Source: Stenotrophomonas sp. BIO128-Bstrain
Lineage (GTDB): Bacteria; Pseudomonadota; Gammaproteobacteria; Xanthomonadales; Xanthomonadaceae
Direction of reading: 5' to 3'
DNA: 64,000 nt
Assembly: GCF_030128875.1 (NCBI RefSeq)
Contig: NZ_CP124620.1
Coordinates: 1,922,001 to 1,986,000, forward strand
Shown piece by piece: positions 13,790 through 42,496 of the stretch; positions within the stretch are counted from its first letter, which is position 1; each line of letters begins with the position of its first letter. A model generated the notes under the pieces. It was not told the origin of the DNA and did not search any database. It worked only from the letters and a program-made list of their open reading frames with translations. Both the position numbers and the translations under genes were made by a program.

Positions 13790-14482
13790 ATGATGAGCAG
13801 GACCGCTCTCGTTGCGCCGCAACGGAACCATGGATTGCGCGGCCTGGCCGCGCTCGTATTGATGGGCTTTGCGCTGTCGGGCTGCGGCGTGGTGGGCCGT
13901 ACCAGCGTCAAGACCGTACAACTGGCAATGCAGGGCAAACCAGACGTTCAGCCCACAGCCGCTGACGTGGCAGCGAACCGCTATCCCCAGATCAAGGTTA
14001 CCGGCCCGCGTGGCGGGGCAGTTCTGGTTCTGGGCAACCTCGATGGTGATCGCCAAGCCTGGTACAGCAACGATCGCAGCGTCGTCTTCCTTGAAGATGG
14101 GCTGGTGGTAGGCACGCATGGTGGCATCCCTGAGCTCCAGGGCATGCGGATCGAGGGTCAACATCCTTTCCACGCCCTGCACCAGATCGAAGCGCCCATT
14201 ACCGTCCAGCGCCAGTATGACGTCATGCCTGGCTATCGCTTCGGCATGACGGTGAGCGGCACCCTCGAACGCCTTGGCACCGAGAATGTCGAGATACTCA
14301 ATAGAACCCGTTCATTGCTGCATGTGCGCGAACGGTTGGAAGGCCAGGACTGGAAGCGCGACAACCATTATTGGGTAGACCCGGCCAACGGGTTCATCTG
14401 GAAGAGCGTGCAGGCCATCGCACCCGATGCCAGTCTGGAAATCATCCAGCTCAAACCCTATTTGCCGGATCTGAACCGTTGA
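13790..14482 (+). CDS. gfcB: GfcB/YjbF-family lipoprotein
   Basis: A 230-residue lipoprotein with a basic N-terminus, hydrophobic core and lipobox LSGC (Cys32). The mature part matches the YjbF/GfcB family in layout: a 190-residue beta-rich periplasmic domain (GAVLVLGNLDGDRQAWYSNDR, then VVFLEDGLVVGTHG) ending with DGHYWVD-like DNHYWVDPANGFIWKSVQ. YjbF and GfcB work with YjbG/GfcC and YjbH/GfcD in polysaccharide secretion at the outer membrane; their exact role is unsettled. It lies 10 bases after wza, and its TGA overlaps the TTG start of gfcC, so translation is probably coupled. Confidence 0.88.
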   Translation: MMSRTALVAPQRNHGLRGLAALVLMGFALSGCGVVGRTSVKTVQLAMQGKPDVQPTAADVAANRYPQIKVTGPRGGAVLVLGNLDGDRQAWYSNDRSVVFLEDGLVVGTHGGIPELQGMRIEGQHPFHALHQIEAPITVQRQYDVMPGYRFGMTVSGTLERLGTENVEILNRTRSLLHVRERLEGQDWKRDNHYWVDPANGFIWKSVQAIAPDASLEIIQLKPYLPDLNR

Positions 14483-15258
14483 TCACTTTGCGTCTGGCCG
14501 CCCTTGCCCTGGGCGTGGCCGCCTCTATCTCCCTGCACGCCGCACCAGCCATCACCGTCGAGGTCATCGGCAGCGTCCGAAATCCGGGCATGCTCACGCT
14601 CCCTGCAACCAGTCGCTTGTCTGATGCAGCGCTCGCTGGCGTGCCGGATGATCGCAGCTACATGCTGGGAGCGGCCCTGCTCAAGCGCAGCGAGCTCGTT
14701 GCGCAGACCCGCCTGAAAACAGGCCTCCTGTTCGACCTTGCGGCCATTGAAAGCCGGCAGAGCAGAGACCCGCAAGGTGCCGCGGCCGCAACACGCATCG
14801 CCCGGGAAGTGTCTGCGATGCCGGTGACCGGCCGCATTCGCCAAAGACTCGCTCCGCGTGTACTGGAGATGGACCTCAGCGCCAATTGGCCATTGGCCGA
14901 TGGTGACAGGCTGTACTACCCGACACGTCCAAGCACAGTGACCGTCCTTGGGACGGTGGAGCAGCCCTGCTCGATACCGCACCACGCCTTGCAGCGTCCG
15001 TTGGACTATGTGCGGCAGTGCCCTGCCCTGCTCGCCGCCAGCAAGGATGATGTGTTTGTCATTCAGCCTGACGGCGAGATACAGAAAATTGGCATTGCAC
15101 TCTGGAACCGCAGCGGTGAGTCCACCCTCGCTCCCGGCGCCCTCATTTTTGTTCCTCTCAACGCACGAACAACGCGCGACGTAAACCCCGATTTCAACGA
15201 GGACGCCGCACGCTTCCTCGCCACCCAGGTGCTGGATGCGCCCGGAGCACCGAAGTGA
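14479..15258 (+). CDS. gfcC: GfcC/YjbG-family periplasmic capsule protein
   Basis: A 259-residue protein. I choose a TTG start at 14479 that overlaps the gfcB stop (TTGA); upstream codons in this frame lie inside gfcB. The signal peptide is ITLRLAALALGVAASISLHA. The mature part has SLBB/beta-grasp-like units typical of GfcC (ITVEVIGSVRNPGMLTLPA, then TVTVLGTVEQPCSIPH) and a C-terminal helix. GfcC is a soluble periplasmic protein thought to act with the outer-membrane GfcD and the Wza-like GfcE. Its stop overlaps the gfcD start (GTGA). Confidence 0.85.
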   Translation: MITLRLAALALGVAASISLHAAPAITVEVIGSVRNPGMLTLPATSRLSDAALAGVPDDRSYMLGAALLKRSELVAQTRLKTGLLFDLAAIESRQSRDPQGAAAATRIAREVSAMPVTGRIRQRLAPRVLEMDLSANWPLADGDRLYYPTRPSTVTVLGTVEQPCSIPHHALQRPLDYVRQCPALLAASKDDVFVIQPDGEIQKIGIALWNRSGESTLAPGALIFVPLNARTTRDVNPDFNEDAARFLATQVLDAPGAPK

Positions 15259-17405
15259 CTCGTTTTGCCAGATCACAGGCCGCTCGCCTGAGCCTTGCGC
15301 TGCTCACCTTGAGCATCAGCACCGCCCTCCATGCCCAGAGTGCCCCCGCTCCCACTGCAAGCGATTGGGGCGGCATTGGCCTGTTACAGACCCCCACCGC
15401 ACGCATGGCCGATGAGGGCGAACTCGCCTTCACGGCCAGTCATACCTCGCCTTACAGCCGCTACAACATGGTGCTGCAGCCGCTGCCCTGGCTGGAGGGC
15501 GCGTTTCGCTACGTTTCGGTGGCCAATCGGCGCTATGGTCCGGAATGGCTGAGCGGAACGCAGAACTACAAGGACAAGTCGATCGATCTGAAGGTCCGCC
15601 TGCTTGAAGAGAGTCGCTGGGTTCCCGAAGTTGCGGCAGGCTTTCGCGATCTGGGTGGCACAGGTCTGTTCTCAAGTGAGTACCTCGTCGCCAGCAAGCG
15701 CATTGGCTCTTTCGATGCCAGCGTGGGCCTGGCCACCGGCTACATCGGTAATCGAGGTGATTTCAGGAACCCCCTGACCTCCATCGACGATAGATTCGAA
15801 ACGCGCCCGCGAGCGCAAGGTACAGGCAGCCTCAATAGCGATGGGATGTTCCGTGGCCCGGTCGGTGTCTTCGGTGGCGTCGCGTACCAGACGCCGTGGG
15901 ACGCGCTTCAGTTGAAGCTGGAGTACGACGGCAACGACTACAAGCACGAGCCGCAGGGGAACAACCAGCGCCAGAAGAGCCCGTTCAACGTTGGCGCATC
16001 TTACGCGGTCAACAAGAACGTGCATCTACACCTGGGCTGGGAGCGTGGCGACCTGGCGATGTTCGGCATCACCCTCCGGACGAACCTTGCCCAAGCCAGT
16101 TCCATGGCAAAGGTCCTGGATCCCATGCCGATGCCACTGAAACAGCATCCTGCGACCGCCGTGCCTGAGTCTGAGCACGACACAAATGTTGTCGCGGAAC
16201 TGTTCGACTGGTCCGGCGTCGCCAACCAACTGGAGCAGAACGCAGGGCTGCGCGTTCAGAGCATCAGCCGACGTGGATCGGAACTGATCGTCACCGGAGA
16301 GCAGCGCCGCTTCTACTATCCGGCACAGGGCGTAGGCAGAATGGGGCGTGTTCTCGACGGTACGCTACCTGACGACGTCACGTGGTTCACCGTGCAAAAC
16401 GCCCGGTTGGGCGTTCCGATCGTGGAGACCAGCATCGAACGAAAGGCCCTCGTCGACTACATCGAACACAAGACAGACCTGAGCACTCTCGCCGGTCATA
16501 TCGAGATGGCTCCTCCCGCCGCTCAGCAGCGGGAGACCCTTTACAGCGCACCGCTGCGCCGTTTCGACGGCGGGTTCAACATCGGCTATCAGCAATCGCT
16601 CGGCGGACCTGACGGCTTCGTGCTGTTCCAGGTCGCTGGCACCTACAGCGCCAGCGCCTACCTCACCCGGAATCTTTGGCTCAGCGGCACCGTCAGCTAC
16701 AACGCCTACAACAACTACGACAAGTTCCGCTACGACGCCCCCAGTCGCTTGCCGCGCGTACGCACCAATATCCGCCGGTACATGACGGAAGAGGACTTGA
16801 CGCTACCCAATCTGCAGTTGACCGGCACACGCCAACTTGCGCGGGATACGTATGGCATGGTGTATGCGGGCCTGCTCGAATCCATGTATGCCGGCGCCGG
16901 CGGTGAAGTGCTCTATCGCCCGCTCAATGAACGTTGGGCGGTAGGCGTGGAAGCCAACTGGGTCAAGCAACGCGATTTCAATCAGCGTTTCAGCTTCCGT
17001 GACTACAGTGTCGCCACCGGCCATGCCAGTTTCTACTACATGTGGGGCGAGGAACGGCGCGTGGTGACTGCATTGAGTGCCGGCCGCTATCTGGCCAAGG
17101 ACTGGGGCGCCACCCTGGCTGTCTCACGCGCGTTCGACAATGGCGTGACCATGGGCGCCTACGCAACCAAGACCGACGTATCCTCCAAGGACTTCGGCGA
17201 GGGCAGCTTCGACAAAGGCATCTATGTGTCCGTCCCCTTCGACTTCCTGCTGCCGCGCTCGACGCGCGCCCGGGCTAATTTCACCTGGAACCCGCTCTAC
17301 CGGGATGGCGGCGCTCGCCTAGCGCGCAGTTTTGGGCTGTACCAGATGACATCAGAGCGTGATCCAGAGTTCTTCTTCGACAATATTTCAACCATCGACG
17401 AATGA
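15255..17405 (+). CDS. gfcD: GfcD/YjbH-family outer-membrane beta-barrel protein
   Basis: A 716-residue exported protein with a GTG start overlapping the gfcC stop. After the signal peptide (ending STALHAQ) comes the YjbH signature WGGIGLLQTPTARMADEGELAFTAS, here quoted in parts (WGGIGLLQTPTAR and MADEGELAF). Alternating strands with aromatic girdles then continue to the end, as expected of the double-barrel YjbH family. These proteins are needed for secretion of group 4 capsule or related exopolysaccharide. It ends the export operon. The decayed IS begins about 30 bases later and does not interrupt the frame; the length is normal for the family. Confidence 0.88.
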   Translation: MTRFARSQAARLSLALLTLSISTALHAQSAPAPTASDWGGIGLLQTPTARMADEGELAFTASHTSPYSRYNMVLQPLPWLEGAFRYVSVANRRYGPEWLSGTQNYKDKSIDLKVRLLEESRWVPEVAAGFRDLGGTGLFSSEYLVASKRIGSFDASVGLATGYIGNRGDFRNPLTSIDDRFETRPRAQGTGSLNSDGMFRGPVGVFGGVAYQTPWDALQLKLEYDGNDYKHEPQGNNQRQKSPFNVGASYAVNKNVHLHLGWERGDLAMFGITLRTNLAQASSMAKVLDPMPMPLKQHPATAVPESEHDTNVVAELFDWSGVANQLEQNAGLRVQSISRRGSELIVTGEQRRFYYPAQGVGRMGRVLDGTLPDDVTWFTVQNARLGVPIVETSIERKALVDYIEHKTDLSTLAGHIEMAPPAAQQRETLYSAPLRRFDGGFNIGYQQSLGGPDGFVLFQVAGTYSASAYLTRNLWLSGTVSYNAYNNYDKFRYDAPSRLPRVRTNIRRYMTEEDLTLPNLQLTGTRQLARDTYGMVYAGLLESMYAGAGGEVLYRPLNERWAVGVEANWVKQRDFNQRFSFRDYSVATGHASFYYMWGEERRVVTALSAGRYLAKDWGATLAVSRAFDNGVTMGAYATKTDVSSKDFGEGSFDKGIYVSVPFDFLLPRSTRARANFTWNPLYRDGGARLARSFGLYQMTSERDPEFFFDNISTIDE

Positions 17406-18330: not shown

Positions 18331-18761
18331 TGAGGACTTGCCGGAAGGCTTTTTTACGATCCGCACCCCGTAGTCCTGCTTGAGGACATCGACGATGGCT
18401 TCGAAAAGCTGCGCTTTCTCGTTGGCTTCCCGCAGTTGCACCTGCAAGGCCTTGATCTGTTGTTCCGGCGTCAGCGGCTTGGCCGCCCCGCTTTTGGGTG
18501 AAGTGGTCATGGGCGCAGATGATGCACCACCCGACCAATCCTGCCGACCATGACGGCGAAGCCAGCCAAGCACGGTGCTCCGTCCTTGAATCCCATATCG
18601 ATCCTGGGCCTTTTTGTAGGTCAGTTCCCCGCGCTCGACCTGGTCAACCACCGACAACTTGAAGGCCAGCGAGTAATCCCGCTGACTGGGCCTGAGTGTT
18701 GAATCCATTGAACATTCCCCTTCCTGTGGGAAAAGGTGTCAACTCAATTCAGGACGGTTCA
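17439..18761 (-). mobile_element. Decayed IS3-family element
   Basis: A copy of an IS3-family element different from the one at 4606, with orfA (18307-18708) and a disrupted orfB. The right end near 18761 reads inward TGAACCGTCCTGAATTGAG. The left end is inferred near 17439 from a weaker match (TCCTG, then GTTGACA). Ends are approximate and no target duplication was recognised. It lies between two converging units (gfcD and wzc) and breaks neither. The stops and a frameshift in orfB show that it is inactive. Confidence 0.75.
18307..18708 (-). CDS. IS3-family OrfA of the decayed element
   Basis: A 133-residue OrfA still open from ATG to stop, with an HTH_Tnp-type N-terminus (DYSLAFKLSVVDQVERGELTYKKAQDRYGIQ, quoted in parts: DYSLAFKLSVVDQVE and KKAQDRYGIQGRSTVLGW) and a coiled-coil region (EQQIKALQVQLREANEKAQLFE). 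The 3' end has a run of A on the coding strand (T on the plus strand at 18350-18355) as a former frameshift site. It can no longer be fused to a working OrfB. Confidence 0.78.
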   Translation of the reverse strand: MDSTLRPSQRDYSLAFKLSVVDQVERGELTYKKAQDRYGIQGRSTVLGWLRRHGRQDWSGGASSAPMTTSPKSGAAKPLTPEQQIKALQVQLREANEKAQLFEAIVDVLKQDYGVRIVKKPSGKSSCKGASRA

Positions 18762-18866: not shown

Positions 18867-21095
18867 TTACTTTTCGCTCGACGCGTACTCGTAGTACCCG
18901 TAGCTGTAGTAACCGGTCGCGCGCCTTTCAACTGCGTTGAAGATGGCGCCCTTGACCTGAATGCCGTTCTGCTCGAAACGCTTCATCGCCAGGAGGATCT
19001 CCTTAGCTTGATTAACTCCAAAGCGAGTTACCATCAGTGTGGAACCTGCATGGCTAGACACAATAGCTGCATCTGTCACTGCCAAGATCGGGGGCGTATC
19101 CACGATCACCAGGTCATATTGCTTAGAGAGCTCTTCCAGTAGGCGACCAAAGCGCGGATGCATAAGCAGTTCCGACGGATTTGGAGGTATTTCGCCACGT
19201 GTCATGTAGTGCATCATCTCAAGACCCTGCACCGGATGAATCGCGTCGTTTGACTCCAACTTGCCAGCCAAAACATCGGACAGACCATCCGTATGACTGA
19301 CGCCCAGCACCTTGTGCAACGTGCCTTTGCGCATGTCAACGTCGATCACGAGCACCTTTTGCCCAGCTTGCGCGACGACCGCCCCCAAGTTGGCCGAGAT
19401 AAATGTCTTCCCGACACCCGGTCGAGGGCCGGAGATGGCGATGATGTTGTTCTTCGCCTCAATCATCGCGAAATGAAGACTAGTGCGCAGGCTGCGGAGC
19501 GCCTCCACCGCCAAATCAGCCGGCTCGGCCGCAGCCAACAGGTGGGGGCGACCATCTCCCACGATCCGCTCCTTCCCCCGCCGCCCTTTCTGTACCTTCA
19601 GTAGGTTGCTGGACACACTCAACGGGATAGCGGCATAAACCGGCAAGCCCAGTTCCTCAATCTCCGCCGGATCCTCGACACCCGGATTAAGCATCCGCAG
19701 CAGGAAAACTGTGGCGGTGGACACGAACACGCCCACCAGCATTGAGATCAATACAGTCAGCGCCTTGCGAGGTTTAACCGGCTTACTTGTGTCAGCAACC
19801 GCATCATCAACAATACGGACGTTACCAACCGTTCCGGCACGAGCCACATCCAGCTGCTGAGCCTGATTGAGCAACGCGGTGTAGAGCTCGTTGCTGACTT
19901 GAAGGTCTCGCGTCAACCGAAGCAGTTCCTGCTGGGTATCCGGCAGCTGACTCACCTCCCGGCGGAAACCATCCTTTCGGGACTGCAGATCACTAATCTG
20001 CTTGAGCATTGCCCGGTATGCTGGATGCTCGCGGGTAAAGCTCCGATCCATTTCTGCCTGCTTCAGACGCAACTGCTGGATACTGCCCTCGACGGCCACT
20101 TCCTGCTCAAGCAAGCCCTTCGTCTGCATCGTGATGTCAACAGAGTTCGCCCGCGACTGGTAGGTAGACATGGCTACCTGGGCATCTTCCACCTGCTTCC
20201 GAACAGTGGGGAGCTGGTCCCTCACGAACTGAAGCTGGGACGCAGCTTCAGCTGAGCCACGATCCACGTTCTGCCGAACATATGCCTCGGCAACATTCTG
20301 AACGAAGGCTTGGGCGCGCGAGGGGTCGCTATCTTCATAGCTGATCCTCAAGATCCCGGACTCCTTGCCCTGCTCGCTGACATTGATGTCTTCCTGAAGG
20401 CCGACGATGACATCGAGCCGTCGCAACTTCACCACTTCGAAGCGAGCGCCATCATTGGCAAGGATCTTCGCCACGTCCAACTTAATTCCGCCCTTGGACG
20501 AGGAAGTCCCCACGCGGCCCTGCAGCAGCTCGTTACCGTCATCATCCATCAAACGGTAGCCGCCATCAGTTCCTGCAACCACAAGGACCAGAGGCCGATC
20601 AAGCAGACTGGCCGGCACCTCAAGGCGCTGTATTTGGAGGATCTCGCCACCCCAGCCGTACCGCGACAGGCCGAAAAGCGGACCCGCCAGCTCATCCGGT
20701 GAGCGCGCTTCGAAGCGGCGTGCGAGAAACCCACCCAGCAACGGGAAGCGATACGGCTCGACAGACGTGTCCAGTTGCATGCGGTCGACAGCCGTACCAA
20801 CGACGGTGCGTGAGGTCAACAGCGCTACCTCGGTCGTGGCCGCAGCGCTTCCGCCACCGGCCAGACTCGTCAAATCCGCTAGGCCCGGCATTGTGGGCAT
20901 CTTTGATTCCACCTGCACCATTGCCTGCGCGCGGTAAACCGGCGAGGTCAGCAGTGCATACGCAGCCCCAATGAGAGTGAACAGGACGGTGGTGCCCAGA
21001 ATCCACCATTTCCGATCAATCAGGACCCCCAACAGGTCGCGCAGGTCGATTTCGTCGTTCTCGCGGACGGGCCGCGCACTGGTTTCCTTGCTCAT
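18867..21095 (-). CDS. wzc: Wzc-type polysaccharide copolymerase and BY-family tyrosine kinase
   Basis: About 742 residues, like E. coli Wzc/Etk. An N-terminal Wzz domain follows a first membrane segment (WWILGTTVLFTLIGAAYALL); a long periplasmic coiled-coil region and a second segment (ALTVLISMLVGVFVSTATVF) come next. The cytoplasmic BY-kinase has Walker A GPRPGVGKTF, Walker A' VLVIDVDMRKG and Walker B LVIVDTPP, and ends in a tyrosine cluster (YYSYGYYEYASSEK) for autophosphorylation. It controls chain length and export together with Wza and Wzb. Several starts are possible (GTG 21119, ATG 21104, ATG 21095); I prefer 21095 from the usual MSKET-type N-terminus. Confidence 0.93.
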   Translation of the reverse strand: MSKETSARPVRENDEIDLRDLLGVLIDRKWWILGTTVLFTLIGAAYALLTSPVYRAQAMVQVESKMPTMPGLADLTSLAGGGSAAATTEVALLTSRTVVGTAVDRMQLDTSVEPYRFPLLGGFLARRFEARSPDELAGPLFGLSRYGWGGEILQIQRLEVPASLLDRPLVLVVAGTDGGYRLMDDDGNELLQGRVGTSSSKGGIKLDVAKILANDGARFEVVKLRRLDVIVGLQEDINVSEQGKESGILRISYEDSDPSRAQAFVQNVAEAYVRQNVDRGSAEAASQLQFVRDQLPTVRKQVEDAQVAMSTYQSRANSVDITMQTKGLLEQEVAVEGSIQQLRLKQAEMDRSFTREHPAYRAMLKQISDLQSRKDGFRREVSQLPDTQQELLRLTRDLQVSNELYTALLNQAQQLDVARAGTVGNVRIVDDAVADTSKPVKPRKALTVLISMLVGVFVSTATVFLLRMLNPGVEDPAEIEELGLPVYAAIPLSVSSNLLKVQKGRRGKERIVGDGRPHLLAAAEPADLAVEALRSLRTSLHFAMIEAKNNIIAISGPRPGVGKTFISANLGAVVAQAGQKVLVIDVDMRKGTLHKVLGVSHTDGLSDVLAGKLESNDAIHPVQGLEMMHYMTRGEIPPNPSELLMHPRFGRLLEELSKQYDLVIVDTPPILAVTDAAIVSSHAGSTLMVTRFGVNQAKEILLAMKRFEQNGIQVKGAIFNAVERRATGYYSYGYYEYASSEK

Positions 21096-21135
21096 GGCTT
21101 CCATTTCTGTTGAAAACACCGCACCTGCGCGGTAG

Positions 21136-21576
21136 TTACTTGATGTGTGGGGCCCAACGGGAAACGCCCTGCTCGATTACGCCAAACACGTGTTCAAAGG
21201 CGATCCGCTGCTGCCTGTACGGGTCAGCGACCTCGGCCTTGCCATCCCAATGCCCTAGCAAGAATGTCTTGCCGCTCACCTGTGGCACATCGCGGATGAT
21301 TCTGGCGATGTGCGCCTGCTCCATGACCAGGATCAGGTCAGCAGCCGCAAGAACGGATGGAGTGGCTTGGCGCGCCTGATGACCATCGGGGTCCAATCCA
21401 CGCTCACGCAACAGATCGGCCGCCGTCTGGTCTATCGGCTTGCCAACCAGGGCCTGAAGGCCTGCCGAGGAAATTTCAAGCCCGTGGCGTTCCCGCAGAT
21501 GATGGCGCATCAGCACTTCGGCGGTAGGGCTGCGGCAGATATTGCCAATGCAGACAAACAAGACTCTTTTAAACAC
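21136..21576 (-). CDS. wzb: Low-molecular-weight protein tyrosine phosphatase (Wzb/Etp)
   Basis: A 146-residue phosphatase with the P-loop CIGNICRSP near the N-terminus (CX5R-S) and the general acid in DPYR near residue 130. This class dephosphorylates the C-terminal tyrosine cluster of Wzc, whose gene follows about 40 bases downstream in the same direction. The cycle of phosphorylation controls polymer assembly and export. The gene order (phosphatase, then kinase) is the same as etp-etk in E. coli group 4 capsule, but here the pair is inverted relative to gfcBCD. Confidence 0.93.
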   Translation of the reverse strand: MFKRVLFVCIGNICRSPTAEVLMRHHLRERHGLEISSAGLQALVGKPIDQTAADLLRERGLDPDGHQARQATPSVLAAADLILVMEQAHIARIIRDVPQVSGKTFLLGHWDGKAEVADPYRQQRIAFEHVFGVIEQGVSRWAPHIK

Positions 21577-21942: not shown

Positions 21943-23364
21943 ATGGCCTATCTACCCGCCCGGCACCGATCCAGCATCTGGAACGCCTCTGCCAGCAAGG
22001 TGACCGCAATCCTGGCCCTCGTACTGAAGGCCGGCGACCCTCTAATCGTGGTGGGCGGCGCGCTATTGGCCTACGACCTTCGGTTCGGTGACCTAGCCAT
22101 GCCGATCAACTATGCTCGACTGGTCTCCATCACGGTCTTGTTCGCCCTCTTGGTGCTAGGAACCTCAACCCTCTATGCCAGTTGGCGCGGTCGAGGACTC
22201 CTGGCTGAAAGCGCACAGTTGACGTTGAAATGGTTGATCATTTTCGGTGGATTGCTGGCCTACTCCACCGCCGTTCAGGTTACCGATGAAATCTCCAGGC
22301 TGTGGCTTTCCCTTTGGTTTGGGCTCAGCCTTGGTGGAGTAATCGCGCTTCGTGTAATGATTCGCGCTGCCGCCGCCTGGGCGAGAGGTCGCGGCATGGA
22401 TCTTCGAAGTGCGGTCATCGTGGGCGCAAACCCGGACTCCAAGCGAATTGCCGATACCTTCCGAAAGGATCCGTGGGTGGGCATCCACGTACATGGGTGG
22501 TTCTCCACACCAGCCGATCGCGGCAAAGTGGATGGCAGCCCCCACCTCGGAGCGTTATCCAAGCTGGGCGCCTACGTGGAAGCCAATGACATCGACCAGG
22601 TCTGGATTGCCCTGCCCATGCGGGATGAGGCGCATATTTCAGCAGCCCTCGACCAATTGCAGCACTCTACGGCAGACATCAAGTTTGTTCCGGACATGTT
22701 CGGCATGCATCTGTTGAATCACTCCGTGGAGCAGATCTCGGGGCTGCCGGTAATTAACCTTCAGCAGACCCCTCTCCAGGGCGGCGCCAGAATACTCAAG
22801 GCCATAGAAGATCGCGTTCTGGCAACGATGATTCTGCTCGCAATTCTCCCGCTGATGCTCGTGATTGCAATTGCCGTAAAGCTCAGCTCTCCCGGCCCGG
22901 TCTTCTACAGGCAGGAGCGAATGAGCTGGAACAACAAGACCTTCTGGATGCTCAAGTTCCGCTCCATGCCCACGGATGCGGAAACCAGCTCTGGAGCTGT
23001 CTGGGCGAAGGCGGGCGAGAGCCGAGCGACTCGTACGGGCGCATTCTTGCGCAAGACAAGCCTGGATGAGCTTCCGCAGTTCATTAACGTACTGAAAGGA
23101 GACATGTCCATCGTTGGACCGCGGCCCGAGCGACCTGTTTTCGTTCATAAGTTCAAGAATGAAATCCCGGCTTACATGAAGAAGCACATGGTGAAAGCCG
23201 GCATAACAGGCTGGGCCCAGATAAACGGCTGGCGGGGATCCACCGATCTTCACAAGCGCATTGAGTGCGACCTCTTTTACATCGAGAACTGGTCAATTCT
23301 GTTCGATCTGAAGATTGTCTTCCTGACCCTGTTCAAGGGTTTTGTACACAAACACGCCTACTAG
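21943..23364 (+). CDS. wcaJ: Undecaprenyl-phosphate sugar phosphotransferase (WcaJ/GumD type)
   Basis: A 473-residue polyprenyl glycosylphosphotransferase. Four N-terminal hydrophobic segments precede a CoA-binding-like domain (SAVIVGANPDSKRIADTF). A fifth segment (LATMILLAILPLMLVIAIAVKL) then leads to the catalytic bacterial sugar transferase domain with KFRSMP, KTSLDELPQF, SIVGPRPERP and GITGWAQINGWRGST. It starts each repeat unit by transferring hexose-1-phosphate, probably glucose as in WcaJ and GumD, from UDP-sugar to undecaprenyl phosphate. Length and motif set are complete. It is the first gene of the biosynthetic block. Confidence 0.93.
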   Translation: MAYLPARHRSSIWNASASKVTAILALVLKAGDPLIVVGGALLAYDLRFGDLAMPINYARLVSITVLFALLVLGTSTLYASWRGRGLLAESAQLTLKWLIIFGGLLAYSTAVQVTDEISRLWLSLWFGLSLGGVIALRVMIRAAAAWARGRGMDLRSAVIVGANPDSKRIADTFRKDPWVGIHVHGWFSTPADRGKVDGSPHLGALSKLGAYVEANDIDQVWIALPMRDEAHISAALDQLQHSTADIKFVPDMFGMHLLNHSVEQISGLPVINLQQTPLQGGARILKAIEDRVLATMILLAILPLMLVIAIAVKLSSPGPVFYRQERMSWNNKTFWMLKFRSMPTDAETSSGAVWAKAGESRATRTGAFLRKTSLDELPQFINVLKGDMSIVGPRPERPVFVHKFKNEIPAYMKKHMVKAGITGWAQINGWRGSTDLHKRIECDLFYIENWSILFDLKIVFLTLFKGFVHKHAY

Positions 23365-23505
23365 AAGAGCGCCGATTGCGATCTCCAGCGATCAGGACAA
23401 CTCTAGTAACTCCTTGGACCGGAGGGTTTGCCGCGCATTCCAAGGGAGTCGGCCGAACCCCCATCTTCCGTTTGGAATGGTCAGCAGCTTGCTTGTGAAT
23501 TGAGA

Positions 23506-24768
23506 ATGAAAGCAACAGCCCTAAAGAAGATTTCGGGGAATGCCGGCGCGCTTCTGCTCATACAAGCTGCCAACGCGCTCCTACCCTTGATTCTTGCGCC
23601 CTACCTAACTCGCACCCTAGGAAAAGAAGGCTACGGACTATTTGCATTTGGCGTCGCATTCATTCAGGTCGCCAGCATTTTCACGGATTATGGATTTGGG
23701 CTATCTGCGGTCTACCAGATAGCGCGCGCCGGCAAGCATCGCTCCCGTGTGCGCCGCATCGCGGGTGCCGTCTATGCGAGCAAGGCGGTGATCTGCTTGC
23801 TCGCTACAGGCGTCCTGCTTGCCTACCCCTTCTTACAGGATAGCTACGCAGCGCATCGAGACTACTTCTGGCTACTTGCACTGTCAGTGATTGGCCTTGC
23901 CCTACAGCCGGTATGGTTGTTCCAGGGAATCGAGCGTATGGGTCTGATCACCGTCTATGTTCTGATCTCGCGGCTGTCGTTCGTCGCCCTGACCATGCTC
24001 TTCGTGAGGGGCCCCGGCGATCTCGAACGGGTAGCCCTGTTCAATGGCGCGACCCACATTGCTTCCGGGATTGTTGCACTTGCGTTCGTCCGTCGCACTG
24101 GCTATTGGCCGATTTGGCCCGGACTTGGCTACACACTTGGCGTGCTGCGCAGCTCCACCGGCTACTTCTGGTCGCGACTGGCGGTAGTGACGTACGGCGC
24201 GGGTGCAATCCTATTCCTGGGAACCTTTTCCACGCCCAGCCAGGTCGCGCTGTACTCGGTTGCAGAGCAGTTCTATCGCGGCGCACTGGCAGTGTATGCA
24301 CCTGTAACCCAAGCGCTTTATCCGCATATGGCACGCTATCGAGATGTGGCCCTGTTCAAGAAGCTCTTCAAACTCTCGATCGCCCTGGCAATCGTTGGAA
24401 TTTTGATCGGTTTGATAGCCGGGCAATGGCTGATCGGCTTCATCTTCGGTCACGACTATGAGCAGAGCTACGCTGTGTTTCTCGTCTTCATGCTGGCACT
24501 GGCTGCAGCGATCCCATCCATCCTTCTCGGCTACCCATTCCTTGGTGCAATGGGGAACCCGACAGCAGCAAACCGAAGTGTGCTCTTCGCTGGCCTTGTA
24601 CAACTCCTCGCCCTTGGAGCATTGCTTGCACTGGGCTGGACGTCGGCATTGGCCGTGGTATCAGCCGTACTGATTGCCGAGGTCAGCGCACTTGCGTGGC
24701 GCATCAGATGCGCGGCGCCTTATTTCAAATTTACCAATTCTCAGCGGATCCAGAATGAAGCAGGTTAA
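23506..24768 (+). CDS. wzx: Wzx-type polysaccharide flippase
   Basis: A 420-residue integral membrane protein with about 12 hydrophobic segments and the N-terminal signature of the Wzx/RfbX family (LLLIQAANALLPLILAPYLTRTLGKEGYG, quoted in parts: ANALLPLILAPYL and TRTLGKEGYGLFAF). It flips lipid-linked repeat units across the inner membrane for polymerisation by Wzy. I start at the ATG at 23506 (MKATALKK); the open frame further upstream lacks membrane-protein character. It overlaps the CDP-ribitol synthase gene by 14 bases. Base composition is visibly less GC-rich than in the flanking core genes. Confidence 0.9.
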   Translation: MKATALKKISGNAGALLLIQAANALLPLILAPYLTRTLGKEGYGLFAFGVAFIQVASIFTDYGFGLSAVYQIARAGKHRSRVRRIAGAVYASKAVICLLATGVLLAYPFLQDSYAAHRDYFWLLALSVIGLALQPVWLFQGIERMGLITVYVLISRLSFVALTMLFVRGPGDLERVALFNGATHIASGIVALAFVRRTGYWPIWPGLGYTLGVLRSSTGYFWSRLAVVTYGAGAILFLGTFSTPSQVALYSVAEQFYRGALAVYAPVTQALYPHMARYRDVALFKKLFKLSIALAIVGILIGLIAGQWLIGFIFGHDYEQSYAVFLVFMLALAAAIPSILLGYPFLGAMGNPTAANRSVLFAGLVQLLALGALLALGWTSALAVVSAVLIAEVSALAWRIRCAAPYFKFTNSQRIQNEAG

Positions 24769-26149
24769 GAACGTAGCAGTCATCCTTGCCGGCGGCCGCG
24801 GAACCCGAAGTGGGTTCAGCAAGCCTAAGCAGATGATGAAGCTGGCCGGCAGGCCGGTCCTTGAGCACGTCGCCAGGGCATTCCAGACCAATGCAGCGAT
24901 CGATGAAATCCTTATAGTTGCGAATTCGGACTGCATTGCCGACATCGAGCAGACGGTGATGACCAGCCGTCTCAGCAAGGTGAAGTCGGTGATAAGTGGT
25001 GGAGCGGAGCGCTACGACTCGTCGATCGCTGCAATCAATGCCACGAAGCACTACTGCGCGGATTTCAACGTACAGCTTATCTTCCACGATGCCGTTCGTC
25101 CGCTGTTGAGCCAGAAGATCATTGACGACGTGATCCATGCACTTGAGCGCTACAACGCCGTGGATGTTGTGATTCGCGCTACCGACACAATCATCATGGC
25201 CGACCCCGTCACCAACACGATTTCGAGCATTCCCAATCGTTCACTGCTGCGCAACGGACAAACGCCGCAGGCGTTCTCCCACGAGACAATTGAGCGCGCA
25301 TACAACATCGCATTGCGGGATCCTGGATTCGTAACAACAGATGATTGCGGCGTTGTTCTCAAGTATCTCCCCGAGGAGAAGATCTACCTTGTAGACGGCG
25401 ACACAAGCAACATGAAACTCACCTATGAGGAAGACCTGCACGTTCTGGACAAGCTCTGCCAACTGCGCTCCACGCTCGTTGAATCCAAAGAGAAGATTCA
25501 CTTCGCCTTGTCCGAACTGAAGGGGAAAGTGCTGGTCATCTTTGGAGGCACAAGCGGAATCGGCGCTGAAATGGCGCAAGTAGCTGAGGCATACCAGGCA
25601 ATCGCGGTTGTCGCCGGCAAAAGTAACGGCGCAGACATTACGAGCGTTGACAGTATTCGCCGCGTTCTGGATGACACCCATGCCAAGTACGGCCATATCG
25701 ACTTCATCGTCAACTCGGCTGGCATTCTGCACCGCCAGCCGCTGATCGACATGAGTCCTGAGGACATCAGTAGCGCCATTCACGTCAACTACATTGGCGC
25801 GGTCAACGTGGCCCTAGTAGCATTCGATCACTTGCGCGCATCAAAGGGGCAGCTACTCAACTTTACGTCGAGTTCGTACACGTATGGACGCGCGATGTAC
25901 AGCCTCTACAGCTCGTCGAAGGCAGCAATCGTGAACCTGACCCAAGCCCTCGCAGACGAGTGGCATTCGCAGGGTGTCCAGGTGAATTGCATTAATCCCG
26001 AACGCACGGCTACCCCCATGCGTACAAGGGCTTTTGGACTGGAACCTGCAGAGTCACTGCTGACGGCGCGGGATGTCGCGGAGAAGTCGCTCCTGGTGCT
26101 GCTATCCGAGCACACGGGGCAGATCTTCGATATCAAGAAGACCCGATGA
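24755..26149 (+). CDS. bcs1: Bifunctional CDP-ribitol synthase (Bcs1-like: cytidylyltransferase + ribulose-5-P reductase)
   Basis: A 464-residue two-domain protein. Residues 1-240 form an IspD/TarI-type cytidylyltransferase (AGGRGTRSGFSKPKQMMKL, HDAVRPLLS, NGQTPQAF, TDDCG). Residues 250-464 form a short-chain reductase with the cofactor motif GGTSGIGAEMA and the active site YSSSKAA. This arrangement and length match Bcs1 of Haemophilus influenzae type b (about 474), which reduces ribulose-5-phosphate to ribitol-5-phosphate and makes CDP-ribitol. The start overlaps wzx; the end overlaps licD (ATGA). It implies ribitol phosphate in the polymer. Specificity for another pentitol cannot be excluded. 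Confidence 0.87.
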   Translation: MKQVKNVAVILAGGRGTRSGFSKPKQMMKLAGRPVLEHVARAFQTNAAIDEILIVANSDCIADIEQTVMTSRLSKVKSVISGGAERYDSSIAAINATKHYCADFNVQLIFHDAVRPLLSQKIIDDVIHALERYNAVDVVIRATDTIIMADPVTNTISSIPNRSLLRNGQTPQAFSHETIERAYNIALRDPGFVTTDDCGVVLKYLPEEKIYLVDGDTSNMKLTYEEDLHVLDKLCQLRSTLVESKEKIHFALSELKGKVLVIFGGTSGIGAEMAQVAEAYQAIAVVAGKSNGADITSVDSIRRVLDDTHAKYGHIDFIVNSAGILHRQPLIDMSPEDISSAIHVNYIGAVNVALVAFDHLRASKGQLLNFTSSSYTYGRAMYSLYSSSKAAIVNLTQALADEWHSQGVQVNCINPERTATPMRTRAFGLEPAESLLTARDVAEKSLLVLLSEHTGQIFDIKKTR

Positions 26150-26979
26150 ATACTGGTATGGACATCAGCATTCAAGCGACACAGGACAGAATCCTCGCTA
26201 TCTTCAAGTGCTTCGATCAGTTCTGCAACGACAATAAAATTCCCTACTTCTCCTTGGGCGGCACGCTGCTGGGTGCCGTTCGTCACGGGGGATTCATTCC
26301 TTGGGATGACGACATAGATGTCGGAATCCCCCGCGAACACTATGACCGATTCATCACCCTCGCCGCAGAGATGCCCACCCCCTATCGCGTCGAGTCGCGA
26401 GAGCTCGACAGCCAGTACATCTATCCCTATGCAAAGGTCTATGACACCAACAGCATAGTGACGGAGGACTACATTGAGCCCTTCACGCGCGGGCTGTGGA
26501 TAGACGTCTTTCCAATTGACGGCACTTATGAAAGCTCGACATTGCAGTGGGCGCACTTCAAATCCGTGAAATTCATCAACGCGATGACGTTCATAAAGAC
26601 GCGACGCTACAGTCCAGACCCGTCGCATCGCATGAAGACCAATGCCAAACGATTGTTGTCTCTAGGCCTTTCCGTCGTGCCTGAGCGAATGCTGCATTCG
26701 ACACTGGAGTGGCTGCTCCGCAGACGCTCACCCCGAGACTCCACAGCGTCAGGGAACTTGCTTGGACGCTGGGGTAAGCGCGAGATTGTCTGCTCCAAAA
26801 TGTTCACGCCAGGAAGCACGGTCGAGTTCTGCGATATGCATGTCCAGGCACCCGCCTCCGCTGCAGCCTACCTTGACGCCATCTACGGCGACTACATGAG
26901 GCTGCCCCCAGAGCATCAGCGCGTCTCCGGGCATAAGTTCACAAGAGTGGACTTCGTCAGTTCTTACATGAACCCGTGA
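26146..26979 (+). CDS. licD: LicD/FKRP-family phosphotransferase, probable ribitol-phosphate transferase
   Basis: A 277-residue protein with the LicD signature GGTLLGAVRHGGFIPWDDDID and a second acidic motif (WIDVFPIDGT). LicD proteins use CDP-activated alcohols: LicD1/2 transfer phosphocholine, while the related animal proteins fukutin and FKRP transfer ribitol-5-phosphate from CDP-ribitol. No choline genes (licABC) are here, but CDP-ribitol synthase is directly upstream with an ATGA overlap. I therefore infer transfer of ribitol phosphate to a lipid-linked glycan. No signal peptide or membrane segment is seen, so it should act in the cytoplasm before Wzx. Confidence 0.85.
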   Translation: MNTGMDISIQATQDRILAIFKCFDQFCNDNKIPYFSLGGTLLGAVRHGGFIPWDDDIDVGIPREHYDRFITLAAEMPTPYRVESRELDSQYIYPYAKVYDTNSIVTEDYIEPFTRGLWIDVFPIDGTYESSTLQWAHFKSVKFINAMTFIKTRRYSPDPSHRMKTNAKRLLSLGLSVVPERMLHSTLEWLLRRRSPRDSTASGNLLGRWGKREIVCSKMFTPGSTVEFCDMHVQAPASAAAYLDAIYGDYMRLPPEHQRVSGHKFTRVDFVSSYMNP

Positions 26980-27101: not shown

Positions 27102-27917
27102 ATGCAGAACCCGGCAGTCTCGGTGGTAATGGCGGAATTCAATACCGACCCCCTCTATCTGGAGGAATCGATCGCGAGTCTGGTCAATCAGACCTTCCGC
27201 GATATCGAGATCATCATCGTAGATGATGGTGGTAGCACCGATCTTGCTGGTATCTCAGCGCGCTTCAGCGACCCTCGAATCCGCATCTTGGGTAGCGTGG
27301 GCAACCGAGGCCTTGTCCAGTCCCTGAACAGAGGCATCCAGAGTGCCCGGGGAGATTACATCGTGAGGATGGATACAGATGATGTTGCTGCCCCGGATCG
27401 AATTGAGAAGATCCATGCGTTCGCCGTTGCAAATCCGCACTTCACGGTCGTCGGATCGCTTGCAGTCGAATTCTCGGATACACATGGGACTGGTCGAATT
27501 CTCGGGCGCCCTGGCGAGAAGCTTGCCAGACACATCATGCGCGGCGACGCCCCCATACATCCTTCCGTGATCTTTCGCCGCAAGGACATCATTGACTCGG
27601 GACTTTACGAGGAATTTCACCGGGCGGAGGATCTCGCGCTTTGGTGCAAGCTCGTGCTGGCGGGTAGGCGCATTTTTGTCATGAACGAAGTGCTGCTTAA
27701 CTACCGTGTCAATCCAGCCGATTACAAGAAGCGAACACTCAAGCACCGCCGCGGTGAGATCAAGGCGCGCGCATTTTACTATCCAAAGCTGGGAGCGGGA
27801 CCGTATGAGTACCTGTTCGTCATCAAGCCAATCATCGCTGGAGCGCTTCCCAGCAAGCTGGTGATCGCCTTCCGGAATAGATTCATCCTTGGGCAGACGA
27901 AGGATCCAATCCCGTGA
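27102..27917 (+). CDS. GT2-family glycosyltransferase
   Basis: A 271-residue GT-A fold enzyme: VSVVMAEFN at the N-terminus, IIIVDDGGSTD for nucleotide binding, MDTDD as the metal-binding DxD, and RAEDLALW with the catalytic-base-type ED. It should add one sugar of the repeat unit, donor unknown. It lies 122 bases after licD; I saw no separate gene in that gap. The stop codon overlaps a possible GTG start of a 35-codon ORF. Confidence 0.88.
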   Translation: MQNPAVSVVMAEFNTDPLYLEESIASLVNQTFRDIEIIIVDDGGSTDLAGISARFSDPRIRILGSVGNRGLVQSLNRGIQSARGDYIVRMDTDDVAAPDRIEKIHAFAVANPHFTVVGSLAVEFSDTHGTGRILGRPGEKLARHIMRGDAPIHPSVIFRRKDIIDSGLYEEFHRAEDLALWCKLVLAGRRIFVMNEVLLNYRVNPADYKKRTLKHRRGEIKARAFYYPKLGAGPYEYLFVIKPIIAGALPSKLVIAFRNRFILGQTKDPIP

Positions 27918-28021
27918 TTGACCTTGACATGAAGGGCGTCGCCGCCACACAGCGCCTCGCATCGGGCATTCAACGTCGCGGCGCACACAGCTTGACGGCT
28001 CGGGGAAGCGATACCTGCTGA
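27914..28021 (+). CDS. Possible 35-residue ORF coupled to both neighbours
   Basis: A GTG at 27914 overlaps the GT2 stop (GTGA). The frame runs 35 codons to a TGA at 28019-28021 whose last base is the A of the GT4 ATG (TGATG). The product begins MIDLDMKGVAATQRLASG and is basic, with a Cys at the end. It could be a real coupling peptide, a gene remnant, or chance; the double overlap is the only support. Confidence 0.25.
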   Translation: MIDLDMKGVAATQRLASGIQRRGAHSLTARGSDTC

Positions 28022-29109
28022 TGAAGACGATTGTTCACATAGTTGAAGCGACAGCGACCGGCACGCTTTCCATGGTTTGCGTGTGCGCAAACCTGCTTGC
28101 CAGCCAAGGCCACACAGTTCATGTCATCTATTCACCACGCGAGGAGACACCTGACAACCTCGGTACCCTCTTCCATTCGGGCATTGAGCTTCATCGCGTG
28201 GAGATGACTGGCAAGTCGATCACGACCGCCTTCGTCCATGTGCGACGCCTGCTCCGAAAGACGAACCCGGACATCATTCACCTACATTCCTCGTTTGCCG
28301 GCTTCATCGGCCGGATCGCCAGCATCGGACTGCCTAGCCGTACACGCCTGTTCTACAGTCCTCACTGTATCTCGGTAATGCGAGAGGACATCAGGTACAA
28401 GAAGTATGTATTCGCGCTTCTTGAGCGCGTTGCCAGCATAAAGTCATGCACGTACCTGGCCTGTTCAAACAGTGAACGGGTAGCAATCAGGAAGTGGGTT
28501 GGTGTCGAGGCAATTCTTCTTGAGAACGCGGTTGACGCCGTCCACTGCGTGGCCCCACTTGGCTTGGGAAGGAGCCTTGCGGCAGCCGAGCCGCTGACAG
28601 TGGTTACGGTGGGTGGTATCAGACCGCAGAAGGATCCGGCACTATTGGCCGAGATCGCGCGAGGATGCTTCAGTGCTGGGTTGAACGTTCGATTCGTTTG
28701 GGTGGGTGACGGCGATCCCGAGATGGTCTCTGCTCTCATTTATTCAGGCGTTGAAGTGACGGGATGGCTGGAAAAGAAGGACGTCCACGGCCTGCTTTCG
28801 CGCAGCAGCGTGTACATTTCGACTGCAACGTGGGAGGGCCTCCCCGTTTCGGTCATTGAAGCCATGGCAAGCGGCATGCTCGTAATGGCAACGCGTTGCG
28901 CAGGAAATACTGATGCGATTGAGCATGGTCGCACGGGCTTGTTGTTCAACGCCGCCGATCAAGCTGTTGAGCTTCTGGCACGCGTGTCGACAGGGCAGCT
29001 GGATCCCGCAGCGATGATCGAAGCCGGCACCATGGAAGCTGGTACCCGCTTCTCGCTCCAGCAGTTCTCCAAGCGACTTTCTGCCGCATACGGCACCCCC
29101 TCCCTTTAA
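28021..29109 (+). CDS. GT4-family glycosyltransferase
   Basis: A 362-residue GT-B enzyme. The N-terminal domain has the Gly-rich loop region (IVEATATGTLSMVCVCANLLASQGH, quoted in parts: IVEATATGT and MVCVCANLLA) and IIHLHSS. The C-terminal domain has VGGIRPQKDP, WVGDGDPE, VTGWLEKKDV and the E(x7)E nucleotide-sugar motif in TWEGLPVSVIEAMASG. These are typical of retaining GT4 enzymes. It should add a second sugar at the cytoplasmic face. With WcaJ and GT2 it accounts for a repeat unit of about three sugars. Confidence 0.88.
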   Translation: MKTIVHIVEATATGTLSMVCVCANLLASQGHTVHVIYSPREETPDNLGTLFHSGIELHRVEMTGKSITTAFVHVRRLLRKTNPDIIHLHSSFAGFIGRIASIGLPSRTRLFYSPHCISVMREDIRYKKYVFALLERVASIKSCTYLACSNSERVAIRKWVGVEAILLENAVDAVHCVAPLGLGRSLAAAEPLTVVTVGGIRPQKDPALLAEIARGCFSAGLNVRFVWVGDGDPEMVSALIYSGVEVTGWLEKKDVHGLLSRSSVYISTATWEGLPVSVIEAMASGMLVMATRCAGNTDAIEHGRTGLLFNAADQAVELLARVSTGQLDPAAMIEAGTMEAGTRFSLQQFSKRLSAAYGTPSL

Positions 29110-29131: not shown

Positions 29132-30268
29132 ATGGGCATCGAGACGCTTCTTCTTCTATCGCTTCCGATATTGTTCGGAACGATGCTCATGTGTATCGCC
29201 GCTGGGGACAGGCCTGCCTACGCAGCCTCCGATCGATCCAGTAGTCACCTGCTCAAGCTTGTTCTGCTGGTCCTTCCGATTTTTGCCTACGGCTTCTATC
29301 TTGTCGCCATGCGGCCTCTGGATGCTGGAAACGACACTGCGCGATACATCCGCACCTATAACCAGCTGAATGGGATAGTGAGCTCAGTAGGCGTGGGAGC
29401 GCGCTTCTTTGGAAACACCGAGTTTCTCTGGTGGCCGCTACAGAGCCTGCTCAAGTTGCTTCTTTCCTCCAGGGGCTGGCTGATTGCTAACTACCTGCTC
29501 GTTTTCGCCTTTACCGCCATGTACTACAAGAGAGCCGCGAGACCACTGAAACTGGCCCCGGAGATCTTTGCACTCGTGTTCCTTACCTTCTTTTTGGTGT
29601 ATTCCGGAAACATCATGAGGCAGGCACTAGCCGCCCCAATTGGTGCGATTGGATTCTACCTTGCATTGGAACGTCGATTCCTTCGAGCCGCAGTACTGAT
29701 CGCGATATCAGTCGGGCTGCACTGGTCGTCCATTGTGTTTGTGGCGGCACCACTCCTACTCCTGCGAGTTTTTGATCGCGATGGAATCTATTTCGCCCTT
29801 CCCCCGATGGCCCTCGCCTTTTCCGCACTATCCTCGACGGTTATTGGCGACTTGGTCAGCGCATTGAACATCCCGGGCATTTCGGAGAAGTTCGACCTTT
29901 ATTTTTCATTGGATCATCAGTCGCACGTCGGCGTCGTCTGGAAGACCGCAAATTTCTGGATATGCTCGACGTCATCTATTGCATTCCTCACCATTGCTCG
30001 CGCCAGCAAGCAAGAGGACAAGCGACTCCACAAGTACACGCTGCTGTTTATCTCACTGGTGTTCTTCGGAATCAATACTGCGGATTTTTCGGAGCGCTAC
30101 ATGCCACTACTACTGCTCGCACTGCCGCTCCAGATCACACTGATAGTAGATCGCTTCAGTATTCCCAACGCGGTCAAGAACATGATCGTGTTTGGCTCAT
30201 TCGTCCTGCTGGCGTCCTTGGTCTTGTTTGCCGAGAGCTCGCAGTACACATTGGGATACACCGTTTGA
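29132..30268 (+). CDS. wzy: Wzy/EpsG-type polysaccharide polymerase
   Basis: A 378-residue integral membrane protein with about 10 hydrophobic segments. Its pattern matches the EpsG-type polymerase family: GNDTARYIRTYNQL after the first segments, then FFLVYSGNIMRQALA in the middle. It joins flipped repeat units in the periplasm, with chain length set by Wzc. It begins 22 bases after the GT4 gene, without a clear ribosome site. Polymerases are poorly conserved, so the call rests on topology, the short motifs and being the only candidate in a complete locus. Confidence 0.85.
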   Translation: MGIETLLLLSLPILFGTMLMCIAAGDRPAYAASDRSSSHLLKLVLLVLPIFAYGFYLVAMRPLDAGNDTARYIRTYNQLNGIVSSVGVGARFFGNTEFLWWPLQSLLKLLLSSRGWLIANYLLVFAFTAMYYKRAARPLKLAPEIFALVFLTFFLVYSGNIMRQALAAPIGAIGFYLALERRFLRAAVLIAISVGLHWSSIVFVAAPLLLLRVFDRDGIYFALPPMALAFSALSSTVIGDLVSALNIPGISEKFDLYFSLDHQSHVGVVWKTANFWICSTSSIAFLTIARASKQEDKRLHKYTLLFISLVFFGINTADFSERYMPLLLLALPLQITLIVDRFSIPNAVKNMIVFGSFVLLASLVLFAESSQYTLGYTV

Positions 30269-30340
30269 CCAACGGCGCAGGTATGCGGCGAGCAATCTCA
30301 CAGGCGACAAGGATTCGCAATGAACCAAAGGAGTAATGGA

Positions 30341-31372
30341 GTGAAACAGGAACGCAACATCCTCATCTGCGGCGGCGCTGGCTACATCGGCAGCCACATG
30401 GCTCAATGGCTGGCCGAGCACGGTCATGAAGTGACCGTATTGGACAATCTATCGACCGGGCACCGCGAGGCCGTCCGCTGGGGAGATCTGATTGAGGCTG
30501 ATCTACTGGACCCAGCGAGCCTCGAACGCGCTTTTGGCGGACGCCGGTTCGACGCCGTCATGCACTTCTGCGCGCGTTCGCTCGTAGGCGAGTCGGTCAC
30601 CCAGCCCTATGCGTATTACGCTAACAACGTCACCGGGACGCTGAACCTTCTTGAGGCAATGAGACGCCATGACGTGGGTAAGCTCGTGTTTTCTTCAACC
30701 GCAGCGGTGTTCGGCAATCCCATAACAGACGCGATTGACGAAGCCCATCCCAAGGCCCCTATTAATCCTTACGGCGCCAGCAAGTTGATGGCTGAGCGGT
30801 TCCTCTCGGATGCTGCCCAAGCCTATGGACTGCGGTCGGTTGCACTGCGCTACTTCAACGCGGCTGGCGCCCTACCGGACCATGGTATCGGTGAAGCTCA
30901 CGCATGTGAGACTCATCTGATCCCTAATGTGTTGCGCGCGGCATTGGGCCAAGGGCCGTCACTGAAGATTTTCGGCAACGACTACGATACCGCCGATGGC
31001 ACTTGCGTACGTGACTATGTGCATGTCCAGGACCTAGCCCAGGCCCACGCCCTTGCATTGAATTTCATGGACAAGGAAGAAGGAGCCCACACGTTCAACC
31101 TCGGCAATGGGCAAGGATTCTCTGTTCACGATGTGATCGCCACTGCAGCCAACGTCACTGGCCTCCCTATCCCCTATGAAGTCACCGCAAGGCGCGAAGG
31201 CGATCCAGCGCGACTGGTCGCAGCTAGCGATAAGGCACGCGAGCAGCTCGGTTGGGCGCCGCAGTGGACCGAGCTGGCGCCGATCATTGATAGCGCATGG
31301 CGCTGGCATCATGACCAGCCGACGTGGTCGCCGCACCATGCCCACAACGATCACCCCGTTCAGGCTGCTTAA
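30341..31372 (+). CDS. galE: UDP-glucose 4-epimerase
   Basis: A 343-residue extended SDR with GGAGYIGSH for NAD binding, SSTAAVFG, the catalytic NPYGASK and [12 protein letters not shown] near residue 225, all typical of GalE. It interconverts UDP-Glc and UDP-Gal (or the GlcNAc forms) and supplies the polymer precursors. I start at the GTG at 30341, where AAAGGAG lies seven bases upstream; an ATG at 30320 lies in front of that site. A His-rich tail follows the conserved end. It is the last gene of the biosynthetic block. Confidence 0.92.
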
Positions 31373-42303: not shown

Positions 42304-42496
42304 CAATCCAACGCGCGTGATTTATATGTCGCGACTATCGCAGAAGGGTCACGCATCGCCCAGCGCAGTGCATCACGAAAGCGGCAACGCATGCAGCAGG
42401 CACGAACGCGTCCACCACGATCCGGCGCGCCGGTGGCTGCGCGACCGGATCCCGACGGCAGCAGGGCGACGGCCCCGGCCATATTGCGACGCGTCA

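Follow-up and report, generated by a model that had tools for sequence, protein, structure and literature searches.

The Haemophilus influenzae enzyme Bcs1 is described as forming cytidine diphosphate (CDP)-ribitol from ribulose-5-phosphate, NADPH and CTP (PMC10299916), and the bifunctional nature of the H. influenzae CDP-ribitol synthase is also named in a reference title. For the enterococcal polysaccharide EPA, it was proposed that, within a Wzx/Wzy pathway, TarI supplies CDP-ribitol and a LicD-family protein transfers the ribitol phosphate from it (PMC7188991), and LicD3 was assigned the addition of ribitol phosphate to the teichoic acid of pneumococci and S. oralis (mitis group) (PMC4649388). 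Cps7C of Actinobacillus pleuropneumoniae is reported as a LicD-family capsule protein with a CDP-polyol donor, homology to FKRP and two crucial aspartates (PMC11666461), and bacterial ISPD-LicD fusions were noted earlier (PMC4873967). Here, a gene pair from a 64,000 nucleotide stretch of Stenotrophomonas sp. BIO128-Bstrain (NZ_CP124620.1, positions 1,922,001 to 1,986,000; the whole stretch is referred to as the window) was analyzed. It consists of a predicted bifunctional CDP-ribitol synthase of the Acs1/Bcs1 type (24755..26149, plus strand) and a LicD-family (PF04991) transferase (26146..26979, plus strand), the proposed CDP-ribitol:glycan ribitol-5-phosphotransferase. An earlier note on this DNA had regarded such a polymer chemistry as undescribed, to its knowledge, for the family. 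This was not borne out, as like schemes are found in PMC7188991, PMC4649388 and PMC11666461, and ribitol phosphate was reported in 2009, together with the gene cluster and an acetimidoylamino-dideoxygalactose, for the Salmonella enterica O47 O antigen. The general mechanism has already been proposed, and the window pair is a further Gram-negative instance.

Judging from gene content and arrangement, the pair probably constitutes the CDP-ribitol synthase and ribitol-5-phosphate transferase cassette of a locus for a capsule or exopolysaccharide of the Wzx/Wzy type. The fused enzyme would reduce D-ribulose-5-phosphate with NADPH and activate the product with CTP, yielding CDP-ribitol. With this CDP-ribitol as donor, the LicD protein would place ribitol-5-phosphate on one of the sugars of the repeat unit while the latter is still in the cytoplasm, linked to undecaprenyl and not yet flipped. 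The repeat unit would carry a first sugar, probably glucose, placed by a WcaJ-type transferase, and further sugars added by two glycosyltransferases of the families GT2 and GT4; it would be flipped by Wzx, polymerised by an EpsG-like protein and exported by Wza/Wzc. Gene families, gene order, overlap and recurrent pairing are observed; which CDP-alcohol is made, which sugar is the acceptor, in what order the steps run and what polymer results are inferred from these. The addition of ribitol phosphate to a lipid-linked unit before flipping had been put forward in the earlier note, and it stands as the best-supported reading, with the product itself inferred, because the cytidylyltransferase tree, the adjacency of LicD in 8 of 14 loci and the lack of a choline kinase or glycerol-3-phosphate cytidylyltransferase above cut-off all favour it.

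The synthase open reading frame (ORF) begins with ATG and encodes 464 residues, in which a TarI/IspD-type cytidylyltransferase is fused to a short-chain dehydrogenase/reductase (SDR) in a single chain, as expected for the Acs1/Bcs1 type; the reductase of H. influenzae Acs1/Bcs1 is presumably an SDR as well. The IspD Pfam domain (135.7 bits, residues 7-230) lies within an N-terminal cytidylyltransferase part of about residues 7-235, and the adh_short Pfam domain (115.1 bits, residues 293-425) within a C-terminal reductase part of about residues 253-460. The best solved-structure match of the N-terminal domain was 4jis (119.9 bits), labeled ribitol-5-phosphate cytidylyltransferase, followed by 3f1c (107.4 bits) and 2vsh (102.3 bits), which we take to be TarI-type enzymes despite the depositors' label 2-C-methyl-D-erythritol 4-phosphate (MEP) cytidylyltransferase. 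A further match, 6xhp (96.9 bits), again carries the ribitol-5-phosphate label, and the next IspD-labeled entry reached 80.0 bits. In a tree of 19 cytidylyltransferase domains, with TarI and IspD labels assigned by NCBIfam score or neighboring genes, 12 fused enzymes and three TarI-type rows were separated from four IspD rows with a support of 100/99; three IspD branches are long, and the IspD row L085 was labeled by our own reading only. By structure matches and tree, the cytidylyltransferase domain as predicted from its sequence is thus nearer to ribitol-5-phosphate than to MEP enzymes. The alternative that the fused enzyme serves as IspD in isoprenoid synthesis was rejected on account of this tree and of a separate IspD (214.4 bits, cut-off 137.4) in the genome, a single contig of 4.49 Mb. 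The nearest named relative found for the synthase is from Stenotrophomonas panacihumi (80% protein identity), and an alignment of 12 fused enzymes revealed invariant positions along both domains.

The LicD gene overlaps the synthase gene by 4 bases at an ATGA start/stop junction (26146..26149, plus strand; ACCCG-ATGA-ATACTG). Its product of 277 amino acids matches the Pfam LicD model over its entire length (profile 1-227 of 227) with 143.5 bits (gathering cut-off 22.6), and the aspartates of the PWDDDxD family motif (D54, D55, D56, D58, D120 and D125) are invariant in all 13 aligned LicD proteins. The coordinates, the 464-residue fusion and the ATGA overlap given in the earlier note all agree with the ORF and Pfam results. 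Among solved structures FKRP is the only credible relative: a single-sequence search gave E 1.7e-5, the other match being at chance level (0.7), and a profile search gave E 9.2e-13 over two co-linear segments, the second of which is weak.

To see how often the pair recurs, 14 loci with a fused enzyme were compared, namely the window, L002 (S. panacihumi), L007 (Proteus mirabilis), L008 (Parabacteroides), L013-L020 including the E. coli O118/O151 locus (L018), L074 and L075. A LicD gene above the Pfam cut-off was adjacent or one gene away in eight of them (window, L002, L007, L008, L016, L017, L018 and L074), which come from two phyla. The LicD of L015 scored 20.2 bits against the cut-off of 22.6 and was left out. 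A LicD profile that we had built included six of the loci on which it was run; all eight counted proteins pass Pfam. The ATGA overlap with the synthase gene was found in the window, L002 and L017. In the loci L016 (8403-11400, minus strand) and L015 (9024-12064, minus strand), a fused synthase-like enzyme overlaps a protein of 552-567 residues whose C-terminal region resembles LicD (28.8 and 20.2 bits, respectively; cut-off 22.6). Judged by eye, flagellar genes lie nearby (a flagellin-like ORF at L016, FlhF/FlhA-like genes at L015), and a polyol-phosphate decoration of flagellin by these pairs is possible. On two contigs of the viral collection an IspD-like stretch lies beside, or less than 1 kb from, a LicD gene (L067 5252-6813 and L063 5968-8402, both plus strand).

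Genome-wide counts followed the same pairing in E. coli, where the LicD gene of O118/O151 occurs in 11 of 5426 genomes and the fused-enzyme query was matched with at least 80% coverage also in 11 of 5426; the five listed of the 11 LicD-bearing genomes are all among the 11 with the fused enzyme. Some match to the fused enzyme was present in 195 E. coli genomes, of which three loci were examined. In a draw of 398 genomes from the phylum, four carried the fused enzyme, the window genome included, and 23 had LicD matches (eight nearly full length); the two coincided in two of the four (hypergeometric 0.018). Adjacency is the stronger evidence. Genome co-occurrence by itself proves nothing, because without the window genome it falls to one of three (hypergeometric 0.16, not significant), and the case rests on adjacency.

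Co-occurrence is one of several points that weigh against the assignment; another is the score of the fused enzyme, which stayed narrowly below the NCBIfam cut-off for D-ribitol-5-phosphate cytidylyltransferase (NF001183; 161.4 vs 166 bits). It also stayed below that for IspD (162.2 vs 181.3). Since the substrate of the SDR domain is unreadable from sequence and the N-terminal domain falls just short of the ribitol-specific threshold, the enzyme might start from another ketose phosphate and produce a CDP-alditol other than CDP-ribitol, such as CDP-arabinitol or CDP-xylitol, and LicD would transfer that polyol phosphate; CDP-glucitol is reported to be made for a Campylobacter capsule (PMC10918830). 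We regard this as unlikely, as in the tree the N-terminal domain falls together with the TarI-type rows and the enzymes of O118 and K-capsules, and the reductase part is co-linear with these enzymes and shares S372-S374, Y385, K389 and P415/R417/T418, invariant in all 12 rows. The O118/O151 enzyme and one K-capsule homologue clear the cut-off of 166 (180.7 and 172.5 bits).

A further point against a ribitol-specific reading is that the LicD sequence does not reveal the donor: the O118 and Proteus LicD proteins group (97/95) with the LicD of L050, which adjoins a different, RmlA-like nucleotidyltransferase. This grouping suggests, as far as sequences can tell, that the donor switches within LicD. 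As a reader of donor specificity the LicD tree failed, with two changes needed for the fused-enzyme LicDs, long branches and weak forks. In NCBIfam the window LicD matches a single model, that of a cholinephosphotransferase, and misses its cut-off by a wide margin (73 vs 225 bits); elsewhere in the genome a weak partial PF04464 match was found (29.5 vs 22.1 bits, profile 159-293 of 367), which also counts against the assignment. With these two matches one could argue that LicD moves phosphocholine, phosphoethanolamine or glycerol phosphate and leaves ribitol phosphate to a different transferase, for instance the PF04464-like protein, yet we consider this very unlikely given the ATGA coupling of LicD to the synthase in the window, L002 and L017 and the outcome of the donor searches. 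Across the whole genome, choline kinase (PF01633) gave one match of 17.1 bits, under the cut-off of 29, and glycerol-3-phosphate cytidylyltransferase reached 11.8 bits against 165.4, so that choline and glycerol donors are disfavoured. The sub-threshold PF01633 match lies in a window ORF of 343 amino acids (41275-42306, minus strand). No choline-activation genes were seen in the locus, in agreement with the earlier note, LicC-type cytidylyltransferases being outside the search. Two neighbors were labeled LicC-like by eye; NCBIfam gave no pointer to choline.

The comparison of loci holds counter-evidence as well. A PF04464-type transferase is adjacent in six of the 14 loci (L013, L014, L019, L020, L074 and L075), five of them without LicD, while the sixth, L074, has both. 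Five of these transferases pass Pfam (L013 with 23.0 vs 22.1 bits, L014, L019, L074 and L075); L020 has no Pfam match and was counted by its record annotation, 39.5% identity to the L013 protein and a PF04464-type profile built by us from L013, L014, L019 and L020. Moreover, the loci are partly related (window, L002 and L017 are close, as are L007 and L018), and several were chosen as best hits. The two transferase types largely follow the mode of export: an ATP-binding cassette (ABC) transporter was recognised in L013, L019 and L020, all with PF04464, and a Wzx similar to that of the window in L002, L017, L018 and L007, all with LicD. L014 breaks the pattern by a PF04464 transferase beside a PF01943 flippase, and the exporter of L008 has no similarity to the window Wzx. 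The capsule of Cps7C is of the ABC type. In the locus L074 (8011-13788, plus strand), from another genus of the same family, the fused synthase is followed by an overlapping LicD and a long PF04464 protein. A variant with separate genes was seen in L047, where TarI (354.6 bits, cut-off 166), a dehydrogenase and LicD share one locus.

The fused enzyme is rare. It was detected in three of 91 genomes of the genus and, by profile search, in three of 299 genomes drawn from the order, the window genome included in both; among 369 genomes drawn from the class, the window genome was the sole hit of the profile search at E 1e-90. The draws share some genomes with earlier ones. A scan of genome contigs with the single protein gave two loci, one of which (L002) is a true fused relative. 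A search of a second genome of the species, the only further one covered, gave no fused enzyme, and GC content is about 54-58% over the variable part of the locus versus about 66-69% downstream. Rarity and composition would also suit a horizontally acquired cassette that is unexpressed or plays no part in the polymer exported, but intact frames, coupled overlaps and the retention of the family-invariant residues make a silent cassette highly improbable. The pair sits in a strain-variable cluster of surface-sugar genes and most likely serves to activate ribitol and to add it, as ribitol phosphate, to the glycan.

The pair stands in a Wzx/Wzy-type locus, a setting that the earlier note had recognised and that was confirmed by the WcaJ-type, PF01943 and PF14897 proteins flanking the pair. 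On the plus strand, a WcaJ-type undecaprenyl-phosphate glucose phosphotransferase for the initiating sugar (21943..23364; NCBIfam 504.1 bits, cut-off 410.75) is followed by the Wzx-type flippase (23506..24768; PF01943), the synthase, LicD, a GT2 (27102..27917) and a GT4 glycosyltransferase (28021..29109), an EpsG-family membrane protein as candidate Wzy polymerase (29132..30268; PF14897, 65.1 bits) and the UDP-glucose 4-epimerase GalE (30320..31372). The Wzx gene runs into the beginning of the synthase gene, and an alternative upstream TTG start for Wzx lies at 23428. The adjoining series comprises a Wza-type polysaccharide export protein (12673..13779, plus strand), GfcB/YjbF, GfcC and YjbH-type capsule genes (13790..17405, plus strand) and, divergently oriented on the minus strand, a Wzc-type chain-length regulator and tyrosine autokinase (18867..21119) and a Wzb-type low-molecular-weight tyrosine phosphatase (21136..21576). 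The arrangement of TagF/ABC-type capsules, PF04464 beside the synthase plus an ABC transporter, is absent at the window locus, which has LicD and Wzx instead. Between the YjbH-like and Wzc genes (17421-18708, minus strand) transposase-like pieces were noticed, with an integrase core (PF13683) in 17424-17864 and the others recognised by eye.

Compared with L002 and L017, the window proteins diverge to different degrees. Identity is 80 and 73% for the synthase and 73 and 58% for Wzx, and drops to 40 and 39% for LicD; for GT2, GT4 and the EpsG-like protein of the window, neither L002 nor L017 gave a match at 1e-5. Such a pattern would fit an unchanged donor combined with acceptors that vary. That the Stenotrophomonas-type locus encodes a ribitol-teichoic-acid-like capsule, and that LicD diversity in the series of window, L002 and L017 records acceptor specificity while the CDP-ribitol donor stays constant, is an idea to which we give somewhat less than an even chance. 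If true, this bacterial series could be used to study what sets the acceptors of fukutin and FKRP apart. The pair adds a Gram-negative LicD tied to CDP-ribitol and, with it, FKRP relatives that are small, consist of one domain and have a donor that can be predicted. Throughout the loci compared, the partner of the CDP-ribitol synthase is LicD where the locus is of the Wzx/Wzy type and a PF04464 transferase in the three loci with a recognised ABC transporter, L014 being the exception; should this rule hold, it would aid the prediction of ribitol phosphate in O antigens and capsules whose structures are unsolved.

Among described clusters, E. coli O118/O151 comes closest in gene content, with 46.8% (fused enzyme), 31.8% (LicD) and 29.9% (Wzx) identity to the window proteins and a wzy gene in the same cluster; fused synthase, LicD, Wzx and a Wzy-like gene are thus united in one locus in both. 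The O118/O151 cluster contains galF, the fused synthase, wzx, LicD, wzy, a glycosyltransferase gene and acetamidino/N-acetylfucosamine (FucNAc) genes. Whereas the window pair belongs to a Wza/Wzc-GfcBCD locus, this cluster lies between galF and gnd and encodes an O antigen; its wzx is placed between synthase and licD, and its other sugar genes differ. We assume from gene content that the O118/O151 antigens contain ribitol and are akin to Salmonella O47. A review names only O118, O145 and O151 as E. coli O antigens with N-acetimidoyl groups and counts eleven serogroups, unnamed there, in which an alditol or glyceric acid is bound through a phosphodiester. One Proteus study states that a CDP-ribitol gene was found in none of five ribitol-containing O clusters, in contrast to the Proteus mirabilis record L007, in which fused synthase, Wzx and LicD are all present. 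The separate-gene locus L047 resembles H. parainfluenzae strain 17, for which a ribitol-phosphate O antigen was predicted from TarI/TarJ-like genes. In the literature accessible to our search, which misses most subscription papers, no publication linking Stenotrophomonas, ribitol, polysaccharide and O-antigen was found.

By description, the window synthase shares with H. influenzae Acs1/Bcs1 the union of a TarI-type cytidylyltransferase and a reductase in one CDP-ribitol synthase, whereas transfer in H. influenzae is ascribed to a TagF-like portion of Bcs3, for a capsule exported by an ABC transporter (PMC10299916). With EPA and LicD3 the window pair has in common a protein of the LicD family whose proposed role is ribitol-phosphate transfer to a unit carried on undecaprenyl; as far as described, these systems are Gram-positive, EPA uses TarI and no fused enzyme, and the products are teichoic acids. 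Cps7C, like the window LicD in family, proposed CDP-polyol donor and FKRP homology, is set apart by tetratricopeptide (TPR) repeats and a polyol-phosphate acceptor in the cited report (PMC11666461). FKRP and fukutin, finally, share the LicD-type core motif and the CDP-ribitol donor proposed here with the window pair, but the likeness is confined to short segments, and they are described as Golgi-type enzymes (455 modelled residues) acting on the dystroglycan glycan.

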